Positions 4,628-31,561 of a DNA stretch of 32,103 nucleotides are shown one piece after another. Position numbers and translations under genes: made by a program. Numbering within the stretch: position 1 is the stretch's first letter; each line of letters starts with the position of its first letter. Source of the stretch: Phycisphaerae bacterium (GTDB lineage Bacteria; Planctomycetota; Phycisphaerae; Phycisphaerales; SM1A02); the NCBI GenBank assembly GCA_016845245.1, contig JAERSY010000055.1, positions 1 to 32,103 on the forward strand, in the 5' to 3' direction. The notes under the pieces were generated by a model. The model did not search any database and was not told the DNA's origin. It saw only the letters and a program-made list of their open reading frames with translations.

Positions 4628-5908
4628 ATGACGCGAAGTGACGAACTTTATAAGAGAGCTTTAAATGTTTTGCCGGGTGGCGTCAGTCGAAACACTGTGC
4701 TTCGGACGCCTCAACCCTACGCTGCATTTGGCAAGGGTTGTGTGATTACAGATTTAGATGGCGTTGAGCGAATTGATTGTTCAAACAACATGGCATCGCT
4801 CCTTCATGGCCATGCTGACCCTGACATCGTCACTGCAGTGACTGAACAACTTCAACGTGGCTCGGCTTTCACGATGGCAACTGAGATTGAAGTTGAGTAC
4901 GCAGAACACTTATGTTCACGAAATGATTCGTTTGAACAATGCCGTTTCGTCAATTCTGGAACAGAAGCAATCATGGCATGCTTAAAAGCATCGCGAGCAT
5001 TTACAGGTAAGTCAATGATTGCAAAAGCTGAAGGCGCATACCACGGCCAGTACGATTATGCAGAGGTCAGCCAAACACCAACCCCCGGAGATTGGGGTGA
5101 CGTTGATTCGCCAAATAGTGTTCCGGTTGCACATGGCACGCCTCAAGGCGCGCTTGATGATGTTGCCGTGATTCCGTTCAATGATAGTAAGCGCGCTATC
5201 GCCATTCTTGAAAAACACAAAGACGAACTTGCGTGCGTTCTTATTGATCTTATGCCTCATCGCATTGGACTAAGGCCAGCAGATGCTGAATACGTTGAAG
5301 CGCTTCGCGAGTGGACAATGCACAATGATGTGCTTCTTGTGTTTGATGAAGTGATTACATTCCGTAGTGAGTATGGCGGTCTTCAGGAACAGTATGCTGT
5401 TTCCCCTGACTTAACTGCAATGGGGAAAGCAATTGGGGGCGGCTTCCCTGTTGGAGCGATTGCAGGAAGGCGTGATGTCATGGATGTGATGAACCCGAAG
5501 AACACGCCGCTTCTTTTTCCACATTCGGGAACCTTTTCAGCAAATCCAATCACATTGACTGCTGGCTTAACTGCGATGAAGAAGTTTGACCGAGATGCAG
5601 TGGCTCGTCTTAACACGCTTGCCCTTCGCGCGCGCACAGGCATTGAAGACGCCATTCAAGAAACTGGCGCTCATGCGTGCGTCACTGGTGCTGGTTCGAT
5701 GTTACGCATCCACATGAAAAAGGATGTGCCGATGAACTTCCGCGAAGCGTTCCTCACAGAAGAAGAAAACGTGCGACTCAAAAAACTCCTTGACCACTTG
5801 TTTGAGAGCGGGTTCTTGATGATTAACACTTGCTCCGCTGCCCTCTCTACGCCAATGACCGAAACTGAAATTGACGATCTTGTCGAAGCCGTCAAACGGG
5901 GCCTCTAA
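4628..5908 (+). CDS. Class III PLP aminotransferase, likely for a beta-amino acid
   Basis: A 426-residue fold-type I aminotransferase of the glutamate-1-semialdehyde aminomutase/beta-aminotransferase branch. Visible landmarks are VNSGTEA (108-114), YHG (138-140), the PLP-contacting FDEV (Asp240) and the Schiff-base lysine Lys267 in TAMGKAIGGGFPVGA. Two features point to beta-amino-acid aminotransferases rather than to heme synthesis. First, LPGGVSRNTVL near residue 15 places Arg21 where the Variovorax beta-phenylalanine aminotransferase has its substrate-carboxylate arginine (alignment from memory). Second, HSGTF follows the active site. The ATG lies 2 bp after the subunit B stop, so it is the last gene of the operon. 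The inferred role is to convert the beta-amino acid made by the aminomutase into a 3-oxoacid for CoA activation. A housekeeping HemL role is unlikely in this context. Confidence 0.87.
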   Translation: MTRSDELYKRALNVLPGGVSRNTVLRTPQPYAAFGKGCVITDLDGVERIDCSNNMASLLHGHADPDIVTAVTEQLQRGSAFTMATEIEVEYAEHLCSRNDSFEQCRFVNSGTEAIMACLKASRAFTGKSMIAKAEGAYHGQYDYAEVSQTPTPGDWGDVDSPNSVPVAHGTPQGALDDVAVIPFNDSKRAIAILEKHKDELACVLIDLMPHRIGLRPADAEYVEALREWTMHNDVLLVFDEVITFRSEYGGLQEQYAVSPDLTAMGKAIGGGFPVGAIAGRRDVMDVMNPKNTPLLFPHSGTFSANPITLTAGLTAMKKFDRDAVARLNTLALRARTGIEDAIQETGAHACVTGAGSMLRIHMKKDVPMNFREAFLTEEENVRLKKLLDHLFESGFLMINTCSAALSTPMTETEIDDLVEAVKRGL

Positions 5909-5914
5909 CCACAA

Positions 5915-6062
5915 AGGGTCAGACCCGGTACCAGGTCCGGGGTCAGACCCTTTTTTGAGGACATCATCAAAACCGCCTTCACGCACTAAAAACGCCAATT
6001 GTTTATGACTTTGGGGGCAGGTCGGGTACCAGGTCCGGGGTCTGGTACGGGGTCTGACCCTA
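5915..6062. repeat. Palindrome-ended intergenic repeat, copy 1
   Basis: This element is shared with 14054-14189. The common core runs from AGGTCCGGGGTCAGACCC (5933-5950) through a conserved central segment (5957-6014) to GGTCCGGGGTCTG and a terminal GGGTCTGACCC (6050-6060). The two ends are reverse complements of each other (GGGTCAGACCC against GGGTCTGACCC). In this copy an 18-bp unit beginning GGTACCAGGTCC occurs twice, at 5927-5944 and 6025-6042. By eye the two copies agree at roughly nine of ten positions over about 130 bp. It sits between convergent genes. It resembles REP/MITE-type non-autonomous elements, but no transposase is present in the window. Confidence 0.8.
5916..5956 (+). terminator. 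Intrinsic terminator formed by the left end of repeat copy 1
   Basis: Eight bases after the aminotransferase stop, the sequence GGTCAGACCCGG pairs with the downstream CCGGGGTCAGACC (4 bp, one mismatch, 5 bp, then weaker pairing around a GGTACC-containing loop). It is followed at once by TTTTTT at 5951-5956. This has the form of a rho-independent terminator for the catabolic operon and is part of the repeated element. Confidence 0.6.
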
Positions 6063-6076
6063 TGTTTGGGGGAAAA

Positions 6077-6144: not shown

Positions 6145-7767
6145 TTATCCCCAATATGCAATCAGAATGAGAAGGTCATTCACATCGACAACACCGTTGT
6201 CGTTCAAGTCACCGCCACATTCTTCACAGGAGCCCCATTGCGCGATGAGCGCAAGCAAGTCGCTTACATTGATGACACCATCACAGTTAAGATCACCATG
6301 AGAAACACCTTCAAGTCGCTTTGTGACGACAAATGGTTCGCCGCTAGCAGTTCCATCAGATGGCACAACTGTACATGTCAACACAGCACCTGGACACACT
6401 TCAAGTCGCGGAAGATGATCAGCAAGACCTGCTGATTCAACTTGACGCAAGATGTTGTCGCCAACTGACCACGTGTATTCATAGCGAACTAAATCCCAGT
6501 CGAGATCATCAAGTGCACCTGGAGTCAGCACGCTACACGTCAATGTGTCATCAACTGTTGGAAAGTACGGTGCGATTGTTGCGGAGATTGGCTCTGGCAC
6601 GCGGTTTGGTGTTGGATCTTCCGGCGTCACAATTGTCATTGGAAAGTTTAAGTATGGATCCCCATTCACAATCATGTCAACTGTCCATGTTCCGGGAATC
6701 GTATTCAGTTCAGAAAAATCCCAGTAAAACCAAGTGACAAAGAACCGGTAGGATGTCCATGAAGAGTTAAGCCAGTTCGTACCCGAGTCATGTTGCAAGA
6801 CGCCATTTGGATCATAAAACCGCATGCGGTAGTTGCTAAATGGACCAATATCAGTTGCAATTGTCCACATCCACACGCCATCATTATCAAGTGGGATGTA
6901 ACCCTCAAGCGGAGGATGCCACATGTATTCTTCGTCTTCAAAGAAATCATTAAGGTTCGCTGTTGTTATACCGAACTCTTTACATTCAGCTCCAATTGGT
7001 ACAGCAATTTGATTGAGCCAACCACTTGGTTGAACATTGCAATCACCCGCATATGGTTCGTAATTCACCCACTCATCTTCAACACCGCTTGGCACCCATG
7101 ATTCAAAATGCAAGTGTGGCCAGTTGCTATAGCCACTCGAAGCAACGAGCCCTATTTGTTCGCCCGCCTTTACTTCTTGACCAACTTCAACGTTGACACT
7201 CCCTTGTTTCATGTGCAAGTACCACACATAGCGTCCCTGCCCATGGTCAATTGCAACATAATTGCTCGCAGTGTCTGGATCCCAAACTGTGTTTTGATCG
7301 GGCTCACCATCATGCGTCATGTAGACCGTTCCATCGAGCGGCGCAACAATTGGCACGCCTACAGACTGATGTTCGAACGTAAAGATTAACGCATCAATGC
7401 CTTTGTGCCCATCATACGAATAACTTCCACAATCCCACGCTTGATGCGCATCCTCTTCAGGATTCAAGTCAACATAGTTTGACATGATGAGGTCTTCCCA
7501 TTCTCTTGCCCCAACAGGGAAGAATGGGTACTTACGATCATCGACATAAGTTCCTGCTTGAGACAAAGGTCCAAAATCTCTGATGTACGATTGTAAACCT
7601 CGCCGCATGTTTGCCCTGTCTTTAGCTGACACGCAATTTGCACCGTGCACATGTTCATGGAACTCTGCAATGCCCGCCAAGCCATTCGCTGGTTTTTGCT
7701 TTACTTCAATATCTGCAAAAACAGCTGTGGTTGTCAAAATGATTGTTGCACATAGTAAATTTTTCAT
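6145..7767 (-). CDS. Exported M23-family metallopeptidase-like protein with C-terminal dockerin
   Basis: The start is the ATG at 7765-7767, which gives a signal peptide (MKNLLCATIILTTTAVFA, 1-18) and has AGGAAG just upstream. An upstream in-frame ATG at 7803 would add 12 polar residues and is less likely. Residues about 115-225 form an M23 (LytM-type) domain with the metal-site motifs HKGID (His121, Asp125), YLHM (His185) and PHLHFE (His218, His220). Such enzymes cut peptide cross-links in cell walls or act on other glycine-containing peptides. A beta-rich region follows (about 285-475), then a C-terminal dockerin repeat pair (about 483-540, DLNCDGVINVSDLLALI and DLNDNGVVDVNDLLILI). It is the last gene of a four-gene minus-strand operon, 10 bp after its upstream neighbour. 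The substrate is unknown. Confidence 0.85.
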   Translation of the reverse strand: MKNLLCATIILTTTAVFADIEVKQKPANGLAGIAEFHEHVHGANCVSAKDRANMRRGLQSYIRDFGPLSQAGTYVDDRKYPFFPVGAREWEDLIMSNYVDLNPEEDAHQAWDCGSYSYDGHKGIDALIFTFEHQSVGVPIVAPLDGTVYMTHDGEPDQNTVWDPDTASNYVAIDHGQGRYVWYLHMKQGSVNVEVGQEVKAGEQIGLVASSGYSNWPHLHFESWVPSGVEDEWVNYEPYAGDCNVQPSGWLNQIAVPIGAECKEFGITTANLNDFFEDEEYMWHPPLEGYIPLDNDGVWMWTIATDIGPFSNYRMRFYDPNGVLQHDSGTNWLNSSWTSYRFFVTWFYWDFSELNTIPGTWTVDMIVNGDPYLNFPMTIVTPEDPTPNRVPEPISATIAPYFPTVDDTLTCSVLTPGALDDLDWDLVRYEYTWSVGDNILRQVESAGLADHLPRLEVCPGAVLTCTVVPSDGTASGEPFVVTKRLEGVSHGDLNCDGVINVSDLLALIAQWGSCEECGGDLNDNGVVDVNDLLILIAYWG

Positions 7768-7777
7768 CACACTTCCT

Positions 7778-8794
7778 TTATTCACAAGTTCCCCAAGCGC
7801 CAATGGCTGTCAGCAAATCACTGATGTTCACTTCGCCGCTGTTGTCTAAATCTTCTGCACATCCATCGCATGGGCCCCACGCACCGATGAGCATCAGAAG
7901 GTCTGAAACATTTACTGTGCCATCGCCGTTTATATCTTCTACGCAATCAGTTGGACAATCGTCAGCGACTGTGTTGCCACCCTTGTCGACATAGTTCCCA
8001 ATGATCTGTGGCCCAGGCGTGTCATCTCCAAAGTTACCGCAGACGGTTGTATCACTGAGTGATACTTGTCCACCTGATTGAATCCATAGACCACCAATTG
8101 CTGTGCCATTGTCGCTCCAAGCGAGGTTGCCACGAACAGTGCACCCTTGCATTGATACCGTTGCATCGGCAACGAGCACGCCACCGATTCCACGATACGA
8201 ACCGAAATCTCCACTATTGTTTTCAATGACACAATCTATAAATGAAATTTCTGTGTAGCCATCACTATATGCGTCAATCTGGATGCCGCCTGTAATTCCC
8301 TGATTGTCACGAAAGACGCACTTGGTAAGTGTCGCTTGCGCATCCTGCATCCCCCCTCCAACGAAATTGCTCTCAAAGACGCAATTTGCAATCGTGACGC
8401 CAGCACCACACTCATAAAGTCTCAGTCCCCCATAGCAATTGACTACGCGTATATTTTCAATATGGACACTGCCATTGGTTCCATAAATCCCCAATCCTTG
8501 TGGAACCGATCCGTCACTGCCTTCAACTCCATTAATTGTGACAGCGGGTGTTCCATCCTTGTTGGTTGCGCCCTGAAGCGTAATCAATTTCTCTAATATG
8601 TACACAGTCGTCCCAGTTCCGGTTCCATCAAACTCGTATGTACCCGCTGAGATGTGGACCATGTCGCCATCTACTGCGGCATCAACTGCATCTTGAATTT
8701 CTTCATAATCAGATGGTACATAAATCGTGTCTGCAAATGAAACAGACGAAGTTGCTAGTAAAATTGAACTGCAAGTAATGAGAAGTTTATTCAT
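7778..8794 (-). CDS. Exported right-handed beta-helix protein with C-terminal dockerin
   Basis: The protein has 338 residues. A signal peptide (about 1-21, ending SVSFA) is followed by IYVPSDYEEIQDAVDAA and GDMVHISAGTY, the usual opening of pectate-lyase-like beta-helix domains in this window. Short repeats with N-C-V-F-x-x-N/D-N patterns continue to about residue 270. The C-terminus holds two dockerin repeats (DINGDGTVNVSDLLMLI and DLDNSGEVNISDLLTAI) and ends WGTCE. No catalytic residues of polysaccharide lyases can be named with confidence, so it may be a binding or structural surface protein. The start codon directly abuts the stop of the upstream gene. GGGGAG lies 9 nt before the start, inside that gene, so the two are probably translationally coupled. 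Confidence 0.87.
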   Translation of the reverse strand: MNKLLITCSSILLATSSVSFADTIYVPSDYEEIQDAVDAAVDGDMVHISAGTYEFDGTGTGTTVYILEKLITLQGATNKDGTPAVTINGVEGSDGSVPQGLGIYGTNGSVHIENIRVVNCYGGLRLYECGAGVTIANCVFESNFVGGGMQDAQATLTKCVFRDNQGITGGIQIDAYSDGYTEISFIDCVIENNSGDFGSYRGIGGVLVADATVSMQGCTVRGNLAWSDNGTAIGGLWIQSGGQVSLSDTTVCGNFGDDTPGPQIIGNYVDKGGNTVADDCPTDCVEDINGDGTVNVSDLLMLIGAWGPCDGCAEDLDNSGEVNISDLLTAIGAWGTCE

Positions 8795-12876: not shown

Positions 12877-14055
12877 ATGACCCTAATTCTCACAGAACGC
12901 AACCTAGAAGACGCTTCAAACGTTGCAAAACACCTCAAGAAGGAGTTTGCGCCAGTGATGCAACTCCCTGCGGTGGAAGGACTTCGGGCATCAAAACTCT
13001 CTCATTCTCTTGGCGTGCACCGAATGACATGCCAGCGCATTGTGAAGTTAAAAACATCTGATGATGCCACTCCCCACCTGCTTACGCAGATTCCGGGGGT
13101 CACTGGCTTGCAAGAGTTCCTTGACGCGTTGATTGCCGCAGGTGTTTCGAAAGAAGTATTGTCTGGCGCCCATGAAGCCATCGATTCGTTTGCAACATTT
13201 TTAAATTGCATTGGACTTAGTCAAACAAAACTCGCTACTGCCCTTTCCTTGCACTATGAATCAACTGATCCTGAAAAGAGATTACAACGAAGAACAAAAC
13301 TCTTTGACGCAGCAGCATCCCTGATGGGTCAGTCAATGGAGTCAACCATCAGCATCATGGCGTTTAAAAATCATCCTTCTGAAGCGTTCAACTTTGAACA
13401 GATCGCAATCCGCGGCTATGCTGGCATTAGCGCAAGTCACTCTGCAATGCCAATTCGACTTCCTATTAACGCAGCGTTTTCCGATTTCAGAAAAGTTGAG
13501 GGCTCTGAGGCAGCGCGTGAACCGCAATCACTGATTGACGCTTTTTGCACCACACCCCTTCCAACAATAGATGCGCGAATGATTAAAGAAGAAAACCTTG
13601 CGCATATCATCAATCCAGAACACATTCCAGACGGAGAACTTTTTGACTGTTTTGCATCACAGCAAAGTATGTGGAAAATTGACAAGCCGGGCATGCACAA
13701 ATCGATTTGGCTTTATAACGATTACCCCTCACGCAGCTGCACATTTGATGTGTACATGCCTGAAGGGATAGCGCTACACAATTCCTTCTCTGCTGATTGC
13801 CATCTCTGGGGAACATCACTACTTGCACCACCGGAAGATTTGTGGATGACACGCTTTTCGACGCAACTTGAGTACATTCCACTTGGGCGCGGCATCAGTG
13901 AATCTGATTCACCTTTTTATACATGTCACAAAGAATTGACCGAACACATGTTCAACATAAAAGGGTGGAACCCAGATGAGTTTTTTGGTTTCCGTTGCCA
14001 AATGACTATGCCTGTGTGGCGCTCCGGCATCTGCCTCGTCATCGAAGAACATTAG
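12877..14055 (+). CDS. Uncharacterised protein with N-terminal helix-turn-helix
   Basis: The protein has 392 residues. I recognise no characterised family. Residues about 36-58 (LRASKLSHSLGVHRMTCQRI) fit a helix-turn-helix, and a helical region follows to about 160. The C-terminal half (about 180-390) is mixed alpha/beta with many Trp, Cys and His residues (for example CHLWGTSLLAPPEDLW). It could be a ligand-binding or enzymatic domain, but no catalytic motif can be named. There is no signal peptide, so it is probably cytoplasmic. It is divergent from the exported dockerin operon across a gap containing a perfect palindrome, which suggests a regulatory role. Its stop codon TAG directly adjoins repeat copy 2. 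Confidence 0.7.
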   Translation: MTLILTERNLEDASNVAKHLKKEFAPVMQLPAVEGLRASKLSHSLGVHRMTCQRIVKLKTSDDATPHLLTQIPGVTGLQEFLDALIAAGVSKEVLSGAHEAIDSFATFLNCIGLSQTKLATALSLHYESTDPEKRLQRRTKLFDAAASLMGQSMESTISIMAFKNHPSEAFNFEQIAIRGYAGISASHSAMPIRLPINAAFSDFRKVEGSEAAREPQSLIDAFCTTPLPTIDARMIKEENLAHIINPEHIPDGELFDCFASQQSMWKIDKPGMHKSIWLYNDYPSRSCTFDVYMPEGIALHNSFSADCHLWGTSLLAPPEDLWMTRFSTQLEYIPLGRGISESDSPFYTCHKELTEHMFNIKGWNPDEFFGFRCQMTMPVWRSGICLVIEEH

Positions 14056-14189
14056 GGTCAGGTCCGGGGTCAGACCCTTTTTTAGGGACATCATCAAAAC
14101 CGGCTTCACGCCCTAAAAACGCCAATTGCTCGTGACTTTGGGGTCAGGTCCTGTACCAGGTCCGGGGTCTGGTCCGGGGTCTGACCCTT
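14054..14189. repeat. Palindrome-ended intergenic repeat, copy 2
   Basis: This is the second copy of the 5915-6062 element, slightly shorter because the left end lacks the GGTACC-containing duplication. It begins at the stop codon of the HTH gene and ends at the stop codon of the minus-strand BNR gene, filling the whole gap between two convergent genes. GGGTCAGACCC followed by TTTTTT (14070-14083) can serve as a terminator for the plus-strand gene. Read on the minus strand, the centre keeps an open frame in both copies (HEQLAFLGREAGFDDV here), and the substitutions do not break it. Confidence 0.8.
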
Positions 14190-16114
14190 TATTTTAGAAT
14201 GAACTTTGTCCACTGTCTGTAATCGCCCGTTTGGATGGATACAAACAACTCTGGCGTGTCATCAGTTTGATCCCAAAGCACGTCAAATGATTTTGGAAGT
14301 TCCCAGTGAATCGTGTAATCGCCCGCTTTTTGATAGGTGTCAACTGGCCTGTCATATACCAAACTCCCGCGGATAAAGATTGTGATGGCCACTTTCTCAT
14401 CTTCAGGAACCTTGTAGGAAATCGTCGCGACGCCTTCTTCGACAGTGGCTGCAATTGAACACTTATCATTTTCAATCACTGGTTCATCACATTGCAAGCG
14501 CGCAAAGTGTTCATCTTCCGGTGCATACTTGTACACTCTGTTGCCGACAGCATACACAACGTCTTCGCTGACTTTAACAAAGCGATTGATGACATCGCCA
14601 TACACCGTATCAATCAGAATGGGCTCCCACGTTTCTCCGCCGTCAACTGTCTGAAGCGTCTCAGCAGGGTATCCGCCAATCCAGCCGACATCTTCATTTA
14701 AGAAGCCGATACCGTTAGCATGGAAGTTATCAGTAAATGTTCGTTCGACCCAAGTTTCACCACCGTCATACGTCGCGACCCATTTGTCAATGTCTTGACC
14801 ACCTGAGCAGACGCCATACCCAAATGAGTCATTTGCAAATCCCATTTTCCAGTAATGGCTTGAATAGTTCGTGATTTTTGTTTCCCATGTTTCGCCGCCA
14901 TCTTCAGTGCAAATGATTGCCGCTTGTCCCTGATGATTGCCGCCTGTGACATATCCCTTAAGCGGGGTATCAAAGTGCACATCGACAAATGTCCAAAAAC
15001 CATTACTTAAATCGATTGAATCCCATGTTTGCCCACCATCAGTTGACCGCACAACATAACAACCACCTGCGTACCTGCCTGCTCCAAAAATTGTTTGACG
15101 ATCAACCGCGTGAATACCACAAATGCCATTTGGAATCTCACCATTGATTGATGACAGTGGCACTGGTTCCCAAGTTTCTCCACCATCTTCCGTGAAGTAC
15201 AACGGATTTGTATCAGTGGTGCTTCCAACCCAACTACCTGGCCCAAGATTACCTGCCCATCCATGCAAGTCATCGACAAATGTCAAACACCGAAATGACG
15301 TGCCTTCTTGATAACAAACGAGCTCCCAGTTTTCACCAGCATCTGTTGATTTAAAAATCTCACCACTGACATTACAAATCCAAATTGTGTCACCACGAAC
15401 AACAATGTCGTCGTGATGTAAATATGGCGCAACAGGTGAAGATGCAAAGACTCTCCAAACGCCTTGCAATGGGCAAGGTCCCCAATTGTTTATCACCGAA
15501 AGTAAATCTGACACATTGACTTCTTCGTCACCGTTGATGTCACTCTCACAGTCACTGCAACTTCCCCAATCATTAATGATCGCAAGAATGTCAGAAACAT
15601 TCGTCGACAAGTCTCTATTGATATCTGTTGGGCATGGATTGTACGGCTCTTCCTTGCCAAGTTGAAGCGTGAGTGTTCCGGGACCAAATGAATCTTCGAC
15701 CCAGCCGCCAACTCTGATGATGTATGTCGAACCGACATCTGGAACAAACTGAACAAGCGAATGATAGGGCTGACAATCTCCATCATTTAACGCATCACCG
15801 CTACATGTGAGATACATCAAGTCGCTGCACCCAATCCCCTGTTCATAGACAATAATGCTTGTGTCAAACGACTCGGGGTCACACGTTGACACAGTGACAA
15901 CGTCATCATCTTCCGCCACATATTCAAACCAAATGTCTTTATGCAGACCACCCATCAAATCGCATGTGCTGTATGTGTCGTACCCGCTGTCTGTATATGT
16001 TGTTGTGTTGTATGACGTCTTTCCCTCGTCAATCACAATTGCATTTGAACAGTGATCTCCTGGCACTCCATAGGTGAGCGCAAAGAAAACTATGAGTTGG
16101 AAGGCAGTCATCAT
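14189..16114 (-). CDS. Exported BNR/Asp-box repeat protein with internal dockerin
   Basis: The protein has 641 residues. A short hydrophobic N-terminus (MMTAFQLIVFFALTYG) acts as a signal peptide. Residues about 19-152 form a Cys-containing beta domain (GDHCSNAIVI ... FDTSIIVYEQG ... IIRVGGW) that also occurs at the C-terminus of the divergent neighbour. A dockerin pair is internal rather than terminal (about 158-212, DINRDLSTNVSDILAII and DINGDEEVNVSDLLSVI). From about 216 to 540, repeated STDAGENWE, TEDGGETWE and STDGGQTWD motifs mark a BNR/Asp-box beta-propeller like Ycf48 or sialidase-type propellers. The last ~90 residues look like a C-terminal beta domain. No catalytic residues are apparent. 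A TATTTT box (complement of 16120-16125) ends 5 nt before the ATG. Confidence 0.83.
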   Translation of the reverse strand: MMTAFQLIVFFALTYGVPGDHCSNAIVIDEGKTSYNTTTYTDSGYDTYSTCDLMGGLHKDIWFEYVAEDDDVVTVSTCDPESFDTSIIVYEQGIGCSDLMYLTCSGDALNDGDCQPYHSLVQFVPDVGSTYIIRVGGWVEDSFGPGTLTLQLGKEEPYNPCPTDINRDLSTNVSDILAIINDWGSCSDCESDINGDEEVNVSDLLSVINNWGPCPLQGVWRVFASSPVAPYLHHDDIVVRGDTIWICNVSGEIFKSTDAGENWELVCYQEGTSFRCLTFVDDLHGWAGNLGPGSWVGSTTDTNPLYFTEDGGETWEPVPLSSINGEIPNGICGIHAVDRQTIFGAGRYAGGCYVVRSTDGGQTWDSIDLSNGFWTFVDVHFDTPLKGYVTGGNHQGQAAIICTEDGGETWETKITNYSSHYWKMGFANDSFGYGVCSGGQDIDKWVATYDGGETWVERTFTDNFHANGIGFLNEDVGWIGGYPAETLQTVDGGETWEPILIDTVYGDVINRFVKVSEDVVYAVGNRVYKYAPEDEHFARLQCDEPVIENDKCSIAATVEEGVATISYKVPEDEKVAITIFIRGSLVYDRPVDTYQKAGDYTIHWELPKSFDVLWDQTDDTPELFVSIQTGDYRQWTKFILK

Positions 16115-18025: not shown

Positions 18026-20554
18026 ATGCAGTCCCTAATTGCTCTTTTGATTTCAGTTCACAGCCACACCGCCAATATGCATTTTGGTGACAAGTCTTTA
18101 CCTGTCGAACTCAATCCATTTTCTATCACAACTCCGGACACACAGTTTGTCACGAAAGATGGCTCCCTAAAGTATGACCCAAATGCAGTTGCGCTTTTTG
18201 TAAGTGAAGACAACAACATTTTTGTCGCGAAGACTCAGAACCACGTGTACGGCATAGCGTTTGTCGACGGCGGGGAATGGTCACTGCAAACCACCGTCGA
18301 TGCTGAAATGAAATGGCATGAAGTCGATGAAACACTTCCGCCAATTGGCGTACCTGTTTGCGGAACGATTGCAGATGATGCAAGACGAACTGCAAGCCGC
18401 CTCGGCACACAATCAAACACACCCCTCTCCCTAGAACTTGCTATTGAAACCGACTACGAATACGCAGAACTCTTTAGTGGCGACTTAAATGAAGCTGCTG
18501 ATTACATTGTTGCACTCTATGGAGCCGTCTCATTTATCTATCAAAGAGATGTCAACATTTCAATCGAACTTGTGTTTGCGCGATTGTGGGATACACCAGA
18601 TGACTTGTTTAACAATGACAATCCGTTTGGTCAGTTTGCAAACTATTGGAATGAGAACATGTCTCATGTCGAAAGAGATCTTGCGCAATTCTTAACTGGA
18701 CGAACGAATTTGCCTTACGGCGGTGTGGCATCACTCTCAGCAGTGTGTTCATCAAGTGGCTACTCCGTCTCTGGATACACGATGGGCTCGTTTTACAGCG
18801 CTACAGAACCGAGTTTTGCAAATTGGGATGTCATCGTCGCAGCCCACGAAATTGGGCACAATTGCGGCACTGGCCATACACATGATTACGATTTAGATGA
18901 ATGCGCCTATGGGGCAATCAACCGTGGTTCAATCATGAGTTATTGTCACACTTCAACTGGCGGGAACGCGAATCAAGACATGCGGTTCCACACGTATACA
19001 AGCGAGCGTATGAGGGACCACCTAGAAAGCGTCTCTTGTTTAGACATCGACTGCAATGGGAATCACATCGATGACGCAGAAGACATTGCTTCGGGCCTAA
19101 GTACTGATGACAATGGCAACTCAATTCCAGATGAGTGTGAAGATTGCAACCAAAATGGTACGCTCGACCCAACTGATATCGCAACTGGTTCAAGTCAAGA
19201 CGCAAATGATAATGGCGTTCCTGATGAGTGCGAGCCCGATTGCAACATGAACGGCTTGCCTGATTCACTTGATATTGCAAACGGAACAAGCGCAGACGCA
19301 TGGGGCAATGGCATCCCCGACGAATGCGAACTCGATTGCGACGGTGATGGCGTAAGCGATTACAACCAAATACAGAATGACATGACGCTCGACATCAATC
19401 GGAACGCGATTCTTGATGCATGTGAAGATTGTGATGGCAATGCCATTCCAGATGAAGTCGATTTAGCTGGCAACCGGTGGATTTGGATTGCTGGTACTGA
19501 CGAGGATGCAGTCAAAGCGTTTCACCCAAGTACTGGCGTACCCATTACAGAAACGAGCGGCGACACAGTCATCGATGGCAGAGATGTTGTGATCTCAGGT
19601 AATTACATATTCGTTTCACATGGTTCCGCAAACAGAGTCGCCGTCTATGACAGGCAAAACTACCAATACGTCAGTTCCCTAACAACTGGACTCTATGCAC
19701 CAGAAGGCATGGCAACAACGAATGACGGCCGATTACTTGTTGTGTCCCGAAACACGGATTCCGTTGAACAGTTTGATGCATCAACGTTGCAATCTCTAGG
19801 AACGCTCATCGAAACGAACGCTGGCGGACTCAACGAACCACGCGCAATCGTATTGACACTTGATGAACACATTCTCGTTTCAAGCGACAATCACAATGTC
19901 CTTGAGTTTGATGCAAACGGCGAGTTTGTGAGAGAACTCATCGCCCCAAGTGCAGGCGGTCTAGACACGCCTCTTGGTATTGTTCAGCATCCAGACGGCC
20001 AAATCCTTGTTACAAGTAATGGCACAAACTCAATCGAATCATACAACAGAAACACTGGCGAACATATTGAACGCTTTGATCGAGGCGGTTTAGAGTCGGG
20101 CTACTGGGGACTAGGCGAGCCATGGGCAATTCGAGTTGGACCGGATGGTGACATCTATGTGTCAACGCATGATGCCAACACTGCAATTCAAGTCTATGAG
20201 GCATCCACCGGACTCTTCAAGCGTCGTTTTTACATACTCTCGCAGCTAGCTCAAGGCGCGACTGGGTTTGCATTTGCACCATCATCTGGCAATGACTGCA
20301 ATGGCAATCTAATTCTTGATGCATGTGATATCAACAGTGGCGAAAGCAGTGATCTGAATCAAGATGGCACGCCAGACGAATGCCAATGCATCACTGATGT
20401 CAATACTGATGGGCAAACAAATGTTTCAGACTTACTTGCAGTCATTGATGCTTGGGGACAATCGAACTCGCCCGCAGATGTAAATGGAGATGGCGTCGTG
20501 AATGTCTCTGATGTGTTACTCATCATCAGTGCATGGGGACCATGTACGCCTTAA
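18026..20554 (+). CDS. Exported M12-like zinc metalloprotease with calcium-repeat, NHL and dockerin domains
   Basis: The preferred start is the ATG at 18026, 9 nt after AGGTGG. The ATG at 18020 is also possible, and 17969 is unlikely. A short hydrophobic signal (MQSLIALLISV) follows. The zinc motif HEIGHNCGTGHTH lies near residue 274 and fits HExxHxxGxxH of the metzincins, with SIMSY about 30 residues later as the Met-turn. Residues about 340-480 hold five repeats of the type DCNxNGxxDxxDIAxG ... GIPDECE, resembling thrombospondin type 3 calcium repeats. A six-or-so-bladed NHL-like propeller follows (about 485-755; repeated GLNEPRAIV, GLDTPLGIV, LGEPWAIRV). A C-terminal dockerin pair ends the protein (DVNTDGQTNVSDLLAVI, DVNGDGVVNVSDVLLII). 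The protein is probably a secreted or surface peptidase. Confidence 0.88.
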   Translation: MQSLIALLISVHSHTANMHFGDKSLPVELNPFSITTPDTQFVTKDGSLKYDPNAVALFVSEDNNIFVAKTQNHVYGIAFVDGGEWSLQTTVDAEMKWHEVDETLPPIGVPVCGTIADDARRTASRLGTQSNTPLSLELAIETDYEYAELFSGDLNEAADYIVALYGAVSFIYQRDVNISIELVFARLWDTPDDLFNNDNPFGQFANYWNENMSHVERDLAQFLTGRTNLPYGGVASLSAVCSSSGYSVSGYTMGSFYSATEPSFANWDVIVAAHEIGHNCGTGHTHDYDLDECAYGAINRGSIMSYCHTSTGGNANQDMRFHTYTSERMRDHLESVSCLDIDCNGNHIDDAEDIASGLSTDDNGNSIPDECEDCNQNGTLDPTDIATGSSQDANDNGVPDECEPDCNMNGLPDSLDIANGTSADAWGNGIPDECELDCDGDGVSDYNQIQNDMTLDINRNAILDACEDCDGNAIPDEVDLAGNRWIWIAGTDEDAVKAFHPSTGVPITETSGDTVIDGRDVVISGNYIFVSHGSANRVAVYDRQNYQYVSSLTTGLYAPEGMATTNDGRLLVVSRNTDSVEQFDASTLQSLGTLIETNAGGLNEPRAIVLTLDEHILVSSDNHNVLEFDANGEFVRELIAPSAGGLDTPLGIVQHPDGQILVTSNGTNSIESYNRNTGEHIERFDRGGLESGYWGLGEPWAIRVGPDGDIYVSTHDANTAIQVYEASTGLFKRRFYILSQLAQGATGFAFAPSSGNDCNGNLILDACDINSGESSDLNQDGTPDECQCITDVNTDGQTNVSDLLAVIDAWGQSNSPADVNGDGVVNVSDVLLIISAWGPCTP

Positions 20555-23090: not shown

Positions 23091-23591
23091 ATGCACCGAG
23101 TATCTGCCATGTTGGTTTTTTGCACAGCATCACTGTGTATTGCTGAAACCCACGTCGTGAATTGTGGCGGGATGTCATTTAGCCCAGAAACTATTACCGT
23201 TCAACCCGGAGACACCATTCGGTGGCAATACACAGGCGGTTTTCCGCACACTGCAACATCAGGTGCAAACTGTGCGTATGACGGCCTCTTCCATGGAACA
23301 GTTGCAAAGTTCAATCCGGTGTTTGAATGGGTTGTTCCAAATGACGTTCCTGATGTCATCCCCTATTACTGCATTCCTCATTGCAATGATGGCATGACCG
23401 GCACTGTTTATGTTGATGGAGCCGCCGAATGCAACAGCGACGTCAATGGTGACAGCAGTGTGAATGTATCTGACCTTCTTGCAGTCATTGATGCCTGGGG
23501 TCAAAGCGACCCTGATGCTGATGTGAATAGTGATGGCACAGTGAACGTCAGCGACTTGTTACAAATCGTTAGTGATTGGGGCGATTGTTAA
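23091..23591 (+). CDS. Exported cupredoxin with complete type 1 copper site and dockerin tail
   Basis: The protein has 166 residues. The signal peptide is about residues 1-18 (MHRVSAMLVFCTASLCIA). Residues 19-110 form a plastocyanin-like domain with all four expected ligands: His53 (FPHTATSG), then Cys94, His97 and Met102 in YYCIPHCNDGM. This matches the His-Cys-His-Met site of blue copper electron carriers. A dockerin pair follows (about 115-166, DVNGDSSVNVSDLLAVI and DVNSDGTVNVSDLLQIV), ending WGDC. It looks like a small surface-attached electron-transfer or copper-binding protein. It shares the cupredoxin domain with the two large beta-helix proteins, where the copper ligands are eroded. 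Its TAA overlaps the stop of the convergent hydrolase gene. Confidence 0.88.
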   Translation: MHRVSAMLVFCTASLCIAETHVVNCGGMSFSPETITVQPGDTIRWQYTGGFPHTATSGANCAYDGLFHGTVAKFNPVFEWVVPNDVPDVIPYYCIPHCNDGMTGTVYVDGAAECNSDVNGDSSVNVSDLLAVIDAWGQSDPDADVNSDGTVNVSDLLQIVSDWGDC

Positions 23592-29476: not shown

Positions 29477-31561
29477 ATGCAGACATTGATTCAATTGACG
29501 GTTTTTTACGTTGTTTCGTGCACTTTTACTTTTGGACAACTTACGCTTAACGAGATTAAGCATGTTCCATTAGGTGTTCAACTTGACAACTCAACCAAAT
29601 CTTCGTTTAAACGAACCACACATGAGATTGTCACCGTTGACAACGCCTCATCGTTTCAATTAGATTTTCGTGGCACAAAACTCGTGCACGGCGCACACAT
29701 ACGCATGACATCACTCCAAGATGGCGCAGTACAACACCTCAACAAACATACGCTTGCACAATGGCAAATGAAAAGCGCATGGTTTAATGGGGACACGGTC
29801 ATCGTTGAACTCATCGAGCAAGGACAAGAAACACATTCAAAATTAAACCTCCATCAAGCAATCACTGTTGAACAACTTGGTGTTGACCAATCAATCTGTG
29901 GCGGTGTCGACGACCGAGAACTGAGTTATGAAGCGAGGACAGCTAGAGGGATGCCAATCGGTTGCACAGCATGGATTATTGATGACACAAACCGAACCTT
30001 CTTATCAGCTGGTCACTGTTCAAATGGTGATGGCAGTGCACTCGGCATCATGCAATTCAATGTACCACTCAGCGATGCGAACGGAAACTACCAACACCCC
30101 GGCCCTGAAGACCAATACCCAGTTGACCCTGAATCAATTCAATTTACGCCTGACACCTACATCGGCAATGATTGGGCGTACTTCGGTTGTTTTCCGAACT
30201 CTGAAACGGGCTTAACTCCCTATGAAGCTCAACAATCATACTTCGAACTTGCAGACGAAGCCCCAATTGTTAAAGGGCAACAAATCAGAATTACGGGGCA
30301 TGGCACGACGTCATCACCCGTGAGCAATACGTGGAACGGCGTCCAAAAGACGCACATCGGTCCATTTGTTTTTAGTGAGGGCACAACGGTCGCGTACCAA
30401 ACAGACACAACTGGTGGAAACAGTGGTTCAGCAGTCCTTGACGAATCAACTGGCCTTGCGATTGGTATTCATACGAATGGCGGCTGCGAAGGCGCAAGCA
30501 ATCAGAATCATGGATGCGCTATACATAACCAGGGCTTACAATATGCACTTGCAAATCCTCAAGGCGTTTGCATACCAAACATTCTGCATTTTGAATTCCT
30601 CACACCTTTACCTGAATCTGTGTACCCAAACCAATCCTTTGAGATCGAGTTTTATGTACAAGACGGAAGCCAATCACCTGAAGAAGATTCAGTGATGCTT
30701 CACATCAACATCAATGGTTCGCAACAAGATATCCAAGCAACCGATCTCGGCGACCAACACTACAAGGTGACAATGCCCGCTTTTGATTGTGGTGATGATG
30801 TGAGTTATTGGTTCAGTGCGATTGGAAACGAAGGCGATGGCGCGTATTCTCCATACAACTACGAAGCAGCGCCATACAGACTTGCCATCGGAGAAATCAT
30901 TAAAGTTTCTTACATCGATGAATCATTCGATGACGGACTCCCCTCAGGGTGGGCTGTTGATGGATTGTGGCACGCGAGTTCATCGTGTACTCCAAATGGA
31001 GATTGTGGCGAAGCACCATTTATCTACTTTGGTTTAGACAGCGAATGCACGTATGACAATGGCGCTGCCGTCGAAGGTTCACTCACCACACCCACCTTTA
31101 CGTTTGACGAGTCAGTCTTTGAAGTTGAAGTTTCGTTCTGTTACGGGCTACTCACAGAAAGTTCAAGTGCGTATGACATCGCGACATTCTCAGCCAATGG
31201 CGTACCAGTTGATGAACTCAGTGACAGCGATGACTGGAATGAATATTCATTCACGACAGCGCCAAACGCAGATGGAACACTCACGCTATCTTGGGACTTT
31301 GATTCGGGTGACGATGTCTACAATGATTTTAGAGGGTTCCACGTCGACAATGTTCGTTTAACAACGGTCACTGTTGTCTGCGATGATTCAATCGATTGCC
31401 CAACTGACATCAATGGTGATGAAATGACAAACGTCAGTGATTTACTGCTTGTCATTGATGGTTGGGGGCAAGCCGGAATCCCTGCAGATGTTAATCAGGA
31501 CGGAATCGTCAACGTCTCCGACGTCTTACTCGTTGTGAGTCAATGGGGCGCGTGTGAGTAA
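29477..31561 (+). CDS. Exported trypsin-like serine protease with C-terminal dockerin
   Basis: The protein has 694 residues, with a signal peptide of about 20 residues (MQTLIQLTVFYVVSCTFTFG). The protease domain spans about residues 135-365. The catalytic triad is His180 (SAGHC), Asp232 (GNDWAYF) and Ser316 (TGGNSGSAV), a chymotrypsin-like (S1) arrangement. Residues about 130-145 (ICGGVDDRE) may mark the junction with a propeptide. Beta-sandwich regions follow at about 375-475 and 480-635, the second resembling MAM/jelly-roll modules (IDESFDDGLPSGWAVDG, GFHVDNVRLTT). The C-terminal dockerin pair (DINGDEMTNVSDLLLVI, DVNQDGIVNVSDVLLVV) ends WGACE. It is likely a secreted or surface protease. 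Its stop lies 7 bp from the convergent sialidase-like gene. Confidence 0.88.
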   Translation: MQTLIQLTVFYVVSCTFTFGQLTLNEIKHVPLGVQLDNSTKSSFKRTTHEIVTVDNASSFQLDFRGTKLVHGAHIRMTSLQDGAVQHLNKHTLAQWQMKSAWFNGDTVIVELIEQGQETHSKLNLHQAITVEQLGVDQSICGGVDDRELSYEARTARGMPIGCTAWIIDDTNRTFLSAGHCSNGDGSALGIMQFNVPLSDANGNYQHPGPEDQYPVDPESIQFTPDTYIGNDWAYFGCFPNSETGLTPYEAQQSYFELADEAPIVKGQQIRITGHGTTSSPVSNTWNGVQKTHIGPFVFSEGTTVAYQTDTTGGNSGSAVLDESTGLAIGIHTNGGCEGASNQNHGCAIHNQGLQYALANPQGVCIPNILHFEFLTPLPESVYPNQSFEIEFYVQDGSQSPEEDSVMLHININGSQQDIQATDLGDQHYKVTMPAFDCGDDVSYWFSAIGNEGDGAYSPYNYEAAPYRLAIGEIIKVSYIDESFDDGLPSGWAVDGLWHASSSCTPNGDCGEAPFIYFGLDSECTYDNGAAVEGSLTTPTFTFDESVFEVEVSFCYGLLTESSSAYDIATFSANGVPVDELSDSDDWNEYSFTTAPNADGTLTLSWDFDSGDDVYNDFRGFHVDNVRLTTVTVVCDDSIDCPTDINGDEMTNVSDLLLVIDGWGQAGIPADVNQDGIVNVSDVLLVVSQWGACE

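Follow-up and report, generated by a model that had tools for sequence, protein, structure and literature searches.

In canonical REP sequences the hairpin has GT[AG]G at its foot, and the REPs that flank RAYT genes are inverted (PMC2817692, PMC6006769); such repeats usually number more than 100 per genome (REPtrons; Nunvar et al., 2010, PMC2817692). The doublets known as REPINs are composed of inverted repeats of one REP, which together with the spacer form a single hairpin (Bertels and Rainey, 2011, PMC3116915). The TIRs surrounding TIRYT genes are non-GTAG repeats with the end motif GGGGWSAS ('TIRtrons'; Di Nocera et al., 2013, PMC3733652), and the TIRYT proteins themselves fall largely into the TnpAY1 subclass 2.1 (Quentin et al., 2018, PMC6006769). 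In addition, a MITE bearing a minisatellite is reported for Porphyromonas gingivalis in the available text of PMC4596501.

The window analyzed here, a 32,103-nt stretch of contig JAERSY010000055.1 of a Phycisphaerae bacterium, contains two near-identical repeat copies, as had been noticed from its sequence: the stretches 5932-6067 and 14059-14194 are 90% identical over 136 nt in the repeat search of the window, and copy 1 used as a blastn query retrieved copy 2 at 92% (E = 2.9e-48). The earlier note described them as one palindrome-ended repeat of about 135 bp, of which the palindromic ends stood, while the unit proved to consist of two separate arrays divided by a 62-nt spacer, both arrays having the same orientation, so that it is not one palindrome, and its ends shifted to 5916-6061 (copy 1) and 14055-14188 (copy 2). 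On the forward strand, copy 1 is made up of a left array (5916-5951), which is parsed into the hexamers GGGTCA, GACCCG, GTACCA, GGTCCG, GGGTCA and GACCCT, a spacer (5952-6013) and a right array oriented as the left one and terminating in CTGACCCT (6014-6061). Copy 2 has the same layout, with a short left array, 12 bp shorter than that of copy 1 (14055-14078), a spacer (14079-14140) and a right array also terminating in CTGACCCT (14141-14188). Though the arrays are direct, the outer ends of the composite are inverted, the arms of copy 1 comprising 31 bp with 84% identity in the repeat search (5911-5941 and 6035-6065), and the whole unit is able to fold. The word GGGTCWGACCC, with one mismatch at most, occurs at five sites in the window, all of them inside the two copies; shuffled versions of the window gave 0.21 sites on average and two at the maximum.

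The arrays proceed in steps of 12 bp, GGTCCGGGGTCA or GGTCCGGTACCA, and are limited by AGGGTCAG...CTGACCCT, two ends that are inverted relative to each other. Within them we distinguished the 6-base blocks GGGTCA (A), GGTCCG (c), GTACCA (B), GGGTCT (T) and GACCCT/G (d), which in complete arrays follow, with variations, the order A-c-(B-c)n-(A-c)m-T-d, the number of hexamers being even; because of this usual order an array has a direction. Length differences between arrays amount to whole 12-bp steps. Eight composites were found in the genome, and in six of these the spacer is exactly 62 nt long, with differing sequences. The spacers of the two window copies are 89% identical to each other and those of the composites on contigs C93, C65 and C107 are 76-81% identical among themselves; between the two groups ungapped identity is 42-47%, the mean for shuffled sequences being 27%. 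Judging by this grouping of the spacers, the composites evidently form a separate lineage and did not result from solo arrays paired by chance. Homologous spacers of one length, which are not unique, ruled out a CRISPR array.

Further copies in the genome, which had been predicted from the window, were found. The search covered 1.91 Mb in 156 contigs (93% complete) and yielded 25 blastn pieces; several copies lie at contig ends, and therefore the copy count is rough and some loci may be halves of one. GGGTCWGACCC, a palindromic word, occurs 34 times per strand, and the reversed control pattern was not encountered at all. The family is represented by solo arrays of 48-84 bp, by composites of two arrays with the 62-nt spacer between them, and by a transposase gene with an array on each side. 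One and the same array, AcBcBcAcTd, was found at three places with unrelated flanks; one of these is the transposase unit, where it is the array on the 3' side, and at another, on contig C96, a second array follows it. An ORF scan of the 18 mapped loci revealed no interrupted gene. Both stretches in the window are copies of this small palindromic repeat, probably a mobile one, which is dispersed in the gaps between genes. An assembly artefact was ruled out, as both window copies and most of the others are interior to contigs.

The earlier note placed the mobilizing enzyme outside the window and proposed looking for a Y1/RAYT-type transposase with the same ends; such a gene is indeed present on contig C64 (G000:C64:38124-38702), with arrays of the family on both sides. 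It is one of two PF01797 genes of the genome, the other being on contig C54. The upstream array reads AGGGTCAGACCCG...CTGACCCT and the downstream one AGGGTCAGGTCCG...CTGACCCT; both follow the 12-bp grammar of the family in the same orientation, and GGGGTCAG occurs on both sides of the gene. The encoded Y1/HuH transposase of 192 aa possesses the HuH (NHFH) and Y---NP (YVEQNP) motifs and a Y1_Tnp domain (PF01797, E 6e-18). The best-matching model for both PF01797 proteins was NF047646, 'REP-associated tyrosine transposase', with 78.1 bits for the C64 protein and 72.6 bits for the other against a cut-off of 80; the IS200 model NF033573, consulted for IS200/IS605 identity, was not reached (31.7 bits, cut-off 55), and a phmmer comparison of the C64 protein with solved structures returned no match at E 0.001. 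In the C64 protein, no Pfam domain besides Y1_Tnp reached its cut-off; subclass 2.1 proteins are longer and have a C-terminal helix-turn-helix. The C54 gene is accompanied by single palindromes, upstream only, 12-bp arrays being found beside the C64 gene only. Sharing of ends with the transposase unit of the same genome, together with a non-coding 62-nt spacer, is what characterizes the composite as a MITE. As seen by eye, a tRNA-Ser-like gene lies directly upstream of the transposase unit on this contig (L043 8870-9063); behind it, its 3' part and the hairpin that comes next are present once more in degenerate form.

Matches in relatives were found as well, and their number depends on the transposase. 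Among 13 genomes of the genus, four possess Y1 genes, and exactly these four are the richest in GGGTCWGACCC (34, 50, 19 and 13 sites against 0-7 in the nine others; exact P = 0.0014). A more distant Y1 type with a YLAMNP motif is also present in two of the four; the counts alone therefore cannot assign the link to one enzyme type. Such numbers bear on the reading according to which some other, unseen transposase of the classical DDE type moves the composite by reading the 31-bp inverted repeats at its outer ends, the Y1 gene being no more than a passenger. The 84% inverted arms are what such an enzyme would use, but solo arrays are dispersed too, no target duplications are evident at the ends, and palindrome numbers linked to the enzyme suit Y1 systems; we consider this reading very improbable.

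The nearest homologue of the C64 protein in the genus (G033:C13, 59% identical) is encoded by a gene with ends of related blocks, GGGTCTGGTACGGACCTGGTAC, on both sides. By pattern search, the 12-bp pattern of our genome is absent from all other members of the 181-genome family set. The arrays of G031 have a period of 13/26 bp and are of the GGGTCAGGTCAAA type, being present also upstream of its Y1 gene on contig C110, and those of G032 and G033 have a period of 12 bp, GGGTCATGTCNN. Tandem structures were also noticed at or towards contig ends: a 26-bp (2 x 13) array of 8.7 copies in G031 (C60, L258 1-226) and, in G032 (C208, L296 1011-1413), a 56-bp unit repeated eight times with one GGGTCAGACCC per unit. 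The flanks of another Y1 gene of G033 (C48, L250) are rich in GGGGACAG and GGGGACAGTCCCC words, so that the genus has a further type of end. Arrays of 13/26 bp or of other 12-bp words related to ours in sister species, along with the fact that Tandem Repeats Finder calls our arrays 12-bp repeats, might be taken to mean that these are ordinary 12-bp minisatellites, dispersed through slippage and gene conversion and not by a transposase. Slippage, however, is unable to carry an array to unrelated gaps, and the fixed ends AGGGTCAG...CTGACCCT, the fixed module order, the spacer common to distant loci and the arrays on both sides of a transposase gene all speak against such an origin, which appears to us scarcely credible.

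At the family level, GGGTCWGACCC is high only in the four Y1-bearing genomes of the genus and in G046, a member of another genus, which has 33 sites and in which the search for Y1 genes gave none. The G046 copies (e.g., L330-L339) are mostly single TGGGGTCAGACCCCA sites, some apparently intragenic, and not 12-bp arrays; this genome is an unexplained exception to the link between the enzyme and the repeat at this level. A scan of GTDB and viral contigs with GGTCCGGKRYCAGGTCCGG produced matches of which those listed were for the most part coding Gly-Pro/Gly-Ser repeats or due to chance in GC-rich genomes, none with a Y1 gene nearby, and it therefore says little on how widely the arrays occur beyond the family. 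In the literature the exact core words occurred in unrelated sequences only.

Both window copies occupy convergent gaps, in agreement with the first description. Copy 1 lies between a class-III aminotransferase gene (4628-5908, +), which stops 7 bp short of the array, and the gene of an M23 peptidase with a C-terminal dockerin (6145-7803, -). The left neighbor of copy 2 (12877-14055, +) has no Pfam match, and the first base of the copy is within the TAG stop codon of this ORF; on the right, the array is adjoined by the last codon of the gene of a BNR/YCF48-like repeat protein (14189-16114, -). The convergent setting holds for these two copies and does not extend to the family as a whole, as other intergenic copies occupy tandem or divergent gaps as well: among the loci mapped genome-wide, several are in tandem gaps and at least one is in a gap that appears divergent, besides those in convergent gaps, and some copies adjoin the 5' ends of genes. 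At several mapped loci the gap to the stop codon is 0 to 8 bp. Three repeats of 119 nt of another kind, related to one another (67-71%), are located at the 3' ends of ORFs in the window (20420-20538, 23463-23581 and 31430-31548); the protein end at the first and the last of these matches the dockerin type I model. Proteins that end in a dockerin point to a host among the Planctomycetota (Phycisphaerales).

The position next to stop codons raises the question of a role in RNA. For copy 2, the right array as + strand RNA is predicted to fold into one long hairpin (-30.8 kcal/mol, z -3.35), and the DNA folding z values of about -2.4 to -3.0 likewise support hairpin formation. Weak terminator-like hairpins with a T-run were recognized on the + strand in copy 1 (5939-5951) and copy 2 (14066-14078), a further hairpin-plus-T site lies in copy 2 at 14176-14188, and three arrays have a T-rich tail after them. 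Over the 20 kb scanned there were 17 terminator-like sites, the shuffled sequence giving 19.9; for the gene to the right of copy 1 there is a separate terminator candidate outside the repeat (6107-6086). A terminator role, as assumed in the earlier note, is possible for the left genes from the sequence, at a level not above chance. The copies could also be regarded as elements that selection maintains in the gene gaps, either as conserved RNA structures at 3' ends or as bidirectional terminators, with mobility being minor or past and the likeness to the transposase ends reflecting a shared ancient origin. Adjacency to stop codons, good folding of the array RNA, T-rich tails and the relics described below at the same gaps in two relatives are in keeping with such elements; the dependence of copy number on the presence of the Y1 gene, the lack of over-representation of terminator-like sites, the several copies in tandem gaps or beside 5' ends, the lack of any Rfam match in the window and an orthologous gene end in G036 with no array argue against them, and we hold this explanation to be improbable.

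Neither G038 nor G036 has an array at the orthologous gene ends. In G038 there is a decayed relic, AGGTCAGACCC, about 82 nt past the stop codon (G038:C147, L326 2152-2162); no other site of this kind occurs in the 11.7 kb, and of 200 shuffles 15 contained one anywhere; in G028 a relic, GGGTCTAACCCCCGACCTGA, is situated directly past the stop codon (G028:C129, L328 2750-2769), and none of 200 shuffles had it. A search for Y1 genes in G038 and G028 found none. The relics in these transposase-free genomes imply that the sites may be old, or preferred and reused, rather than recent insertions: either the family predates the split and decays after loss of the enzyme, or the same gaps have been hit repeatedly. 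Among these relatives, which are 21-35% diverged at the DNA level, no clean pre-insertion (empty) site was definable and no transposition or excision event was seen in the compared genomes.

Considering these facts, we regard it as highly likely that the window copies belong to a non-autonomous MITE/REP-like element dispersed in trans by the Y1 (HuH) single-strand transposase of contig C64. The mobile REP/MITE-type family suggested by the earlier note is thereby supported through its many copies, the ends of the C64 unit and the enzyme-dependent matches in relatives. What we observed is the repeat family with its anatomy, a transposase gene whose ends match it, and repeat numbers that go with the enzyme within the genus; binding, cutting, transposition (and thus the movement of the family) and array growth we infer. 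By analogy with the IS608 and REP systems (PMC6006769, PMC3116915), the best reading is mobilization in trans via single-stranded hairpins. When the DNA is single-stranded, e.g., as lagging-strand template, each array would fold into a hairpin closed by AGGGTCAG and CTGACCCT; the transposase would bind two such array hairpins, cut and rejoin them, and the unit would thereby be placed beside genes or in the gaps separating them, at sites where it is nearly harmless. The internal 12-bp steps are probably gained and lost through slippage or recombination between repeats, because the order inside the array is the same in dispersed copies, whose differences amount to whole 12-bp steps. A bolder proposal, rather unlikely in our opinion, is that the Y1 transposase or hairpin replication itself builds the arrays, with a step and a word peculiar to each enzyme lineage (12 bp, GGGTCAGGTCCG, here; 13 bp, GGGTCAGGTCAAA, in G031; 12 bp, GGGTCATGTCNN, in G032 and G033); an array would then be a record of specificity, and the direct pair with its 62-nt spacer a distinct unit.

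A mobile element served by the C64 enzyme would represent a clear repeat family with its likely own transposase outside gammaproteobacteria, where REP/RAYT pairs have been studied best, and its module grammar and array types across sister species, several of which are enzyme-free, offer a natural experiment on the origin and growth of repeats and on their decay following loss of the enzyme. It resembles the REP/RAYT systems in consisting of extragenic palindromes which flank a cognate HuH transposase gene and whose copy number is tied to the enzyme. At the same time, the number of copies is in the tens, the flanking repeats are direct and not inverted, both C64 arrays pointing the same way, and no GT[AG]G (or CGTC) foot was present in any left flank of the parsed arrays, the base before GGGTC being nearly always A. 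Hence, the initial assignment to the REP type is acceptable with respect to behavior (extragenic, dispersed, multi-copy, enzyme-linked) and fails with respect to the foot and to the doublets, which are not inverted. With REPINs the composites share the doublet structure, a length-constrained spacer, a mostly extragenic location and a presumed movement in trans by a RAYT, but each half is bounded by palindromes and both halves have the same direction. From the minisatellite MITE of P. gingivalis, as presented in the available text, our family differs in host and sequence. The likeness is closer to the TIRYT/TIR systems, which also combine a Y1 gene with non-GTAG flanking repeats and the GGGGWSAS motif (here GGGGTCAG), the repeats being moderately abundant in the genome, partly self-complementary and arranged as dimers or clusters; unlike TIRtrons, however, the ends here are 12-bp modular arrays which point the same way on either side, a miniature form with a spacer constant at 62 nt exists, and the protein, with its Y motif YVEQNP, is only 192 aa long. 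To judge from these sequence comparisons, the family is best classed with TIR/REP-like MITEs, having a RAYT/TIRYT-type enzyme of its own; it is distinct from canonical REPs and REPINs, and its new parts are the 12-bp arrays (13-bp in a sister species), the direct doublets and the fixed 62-nt spacer.
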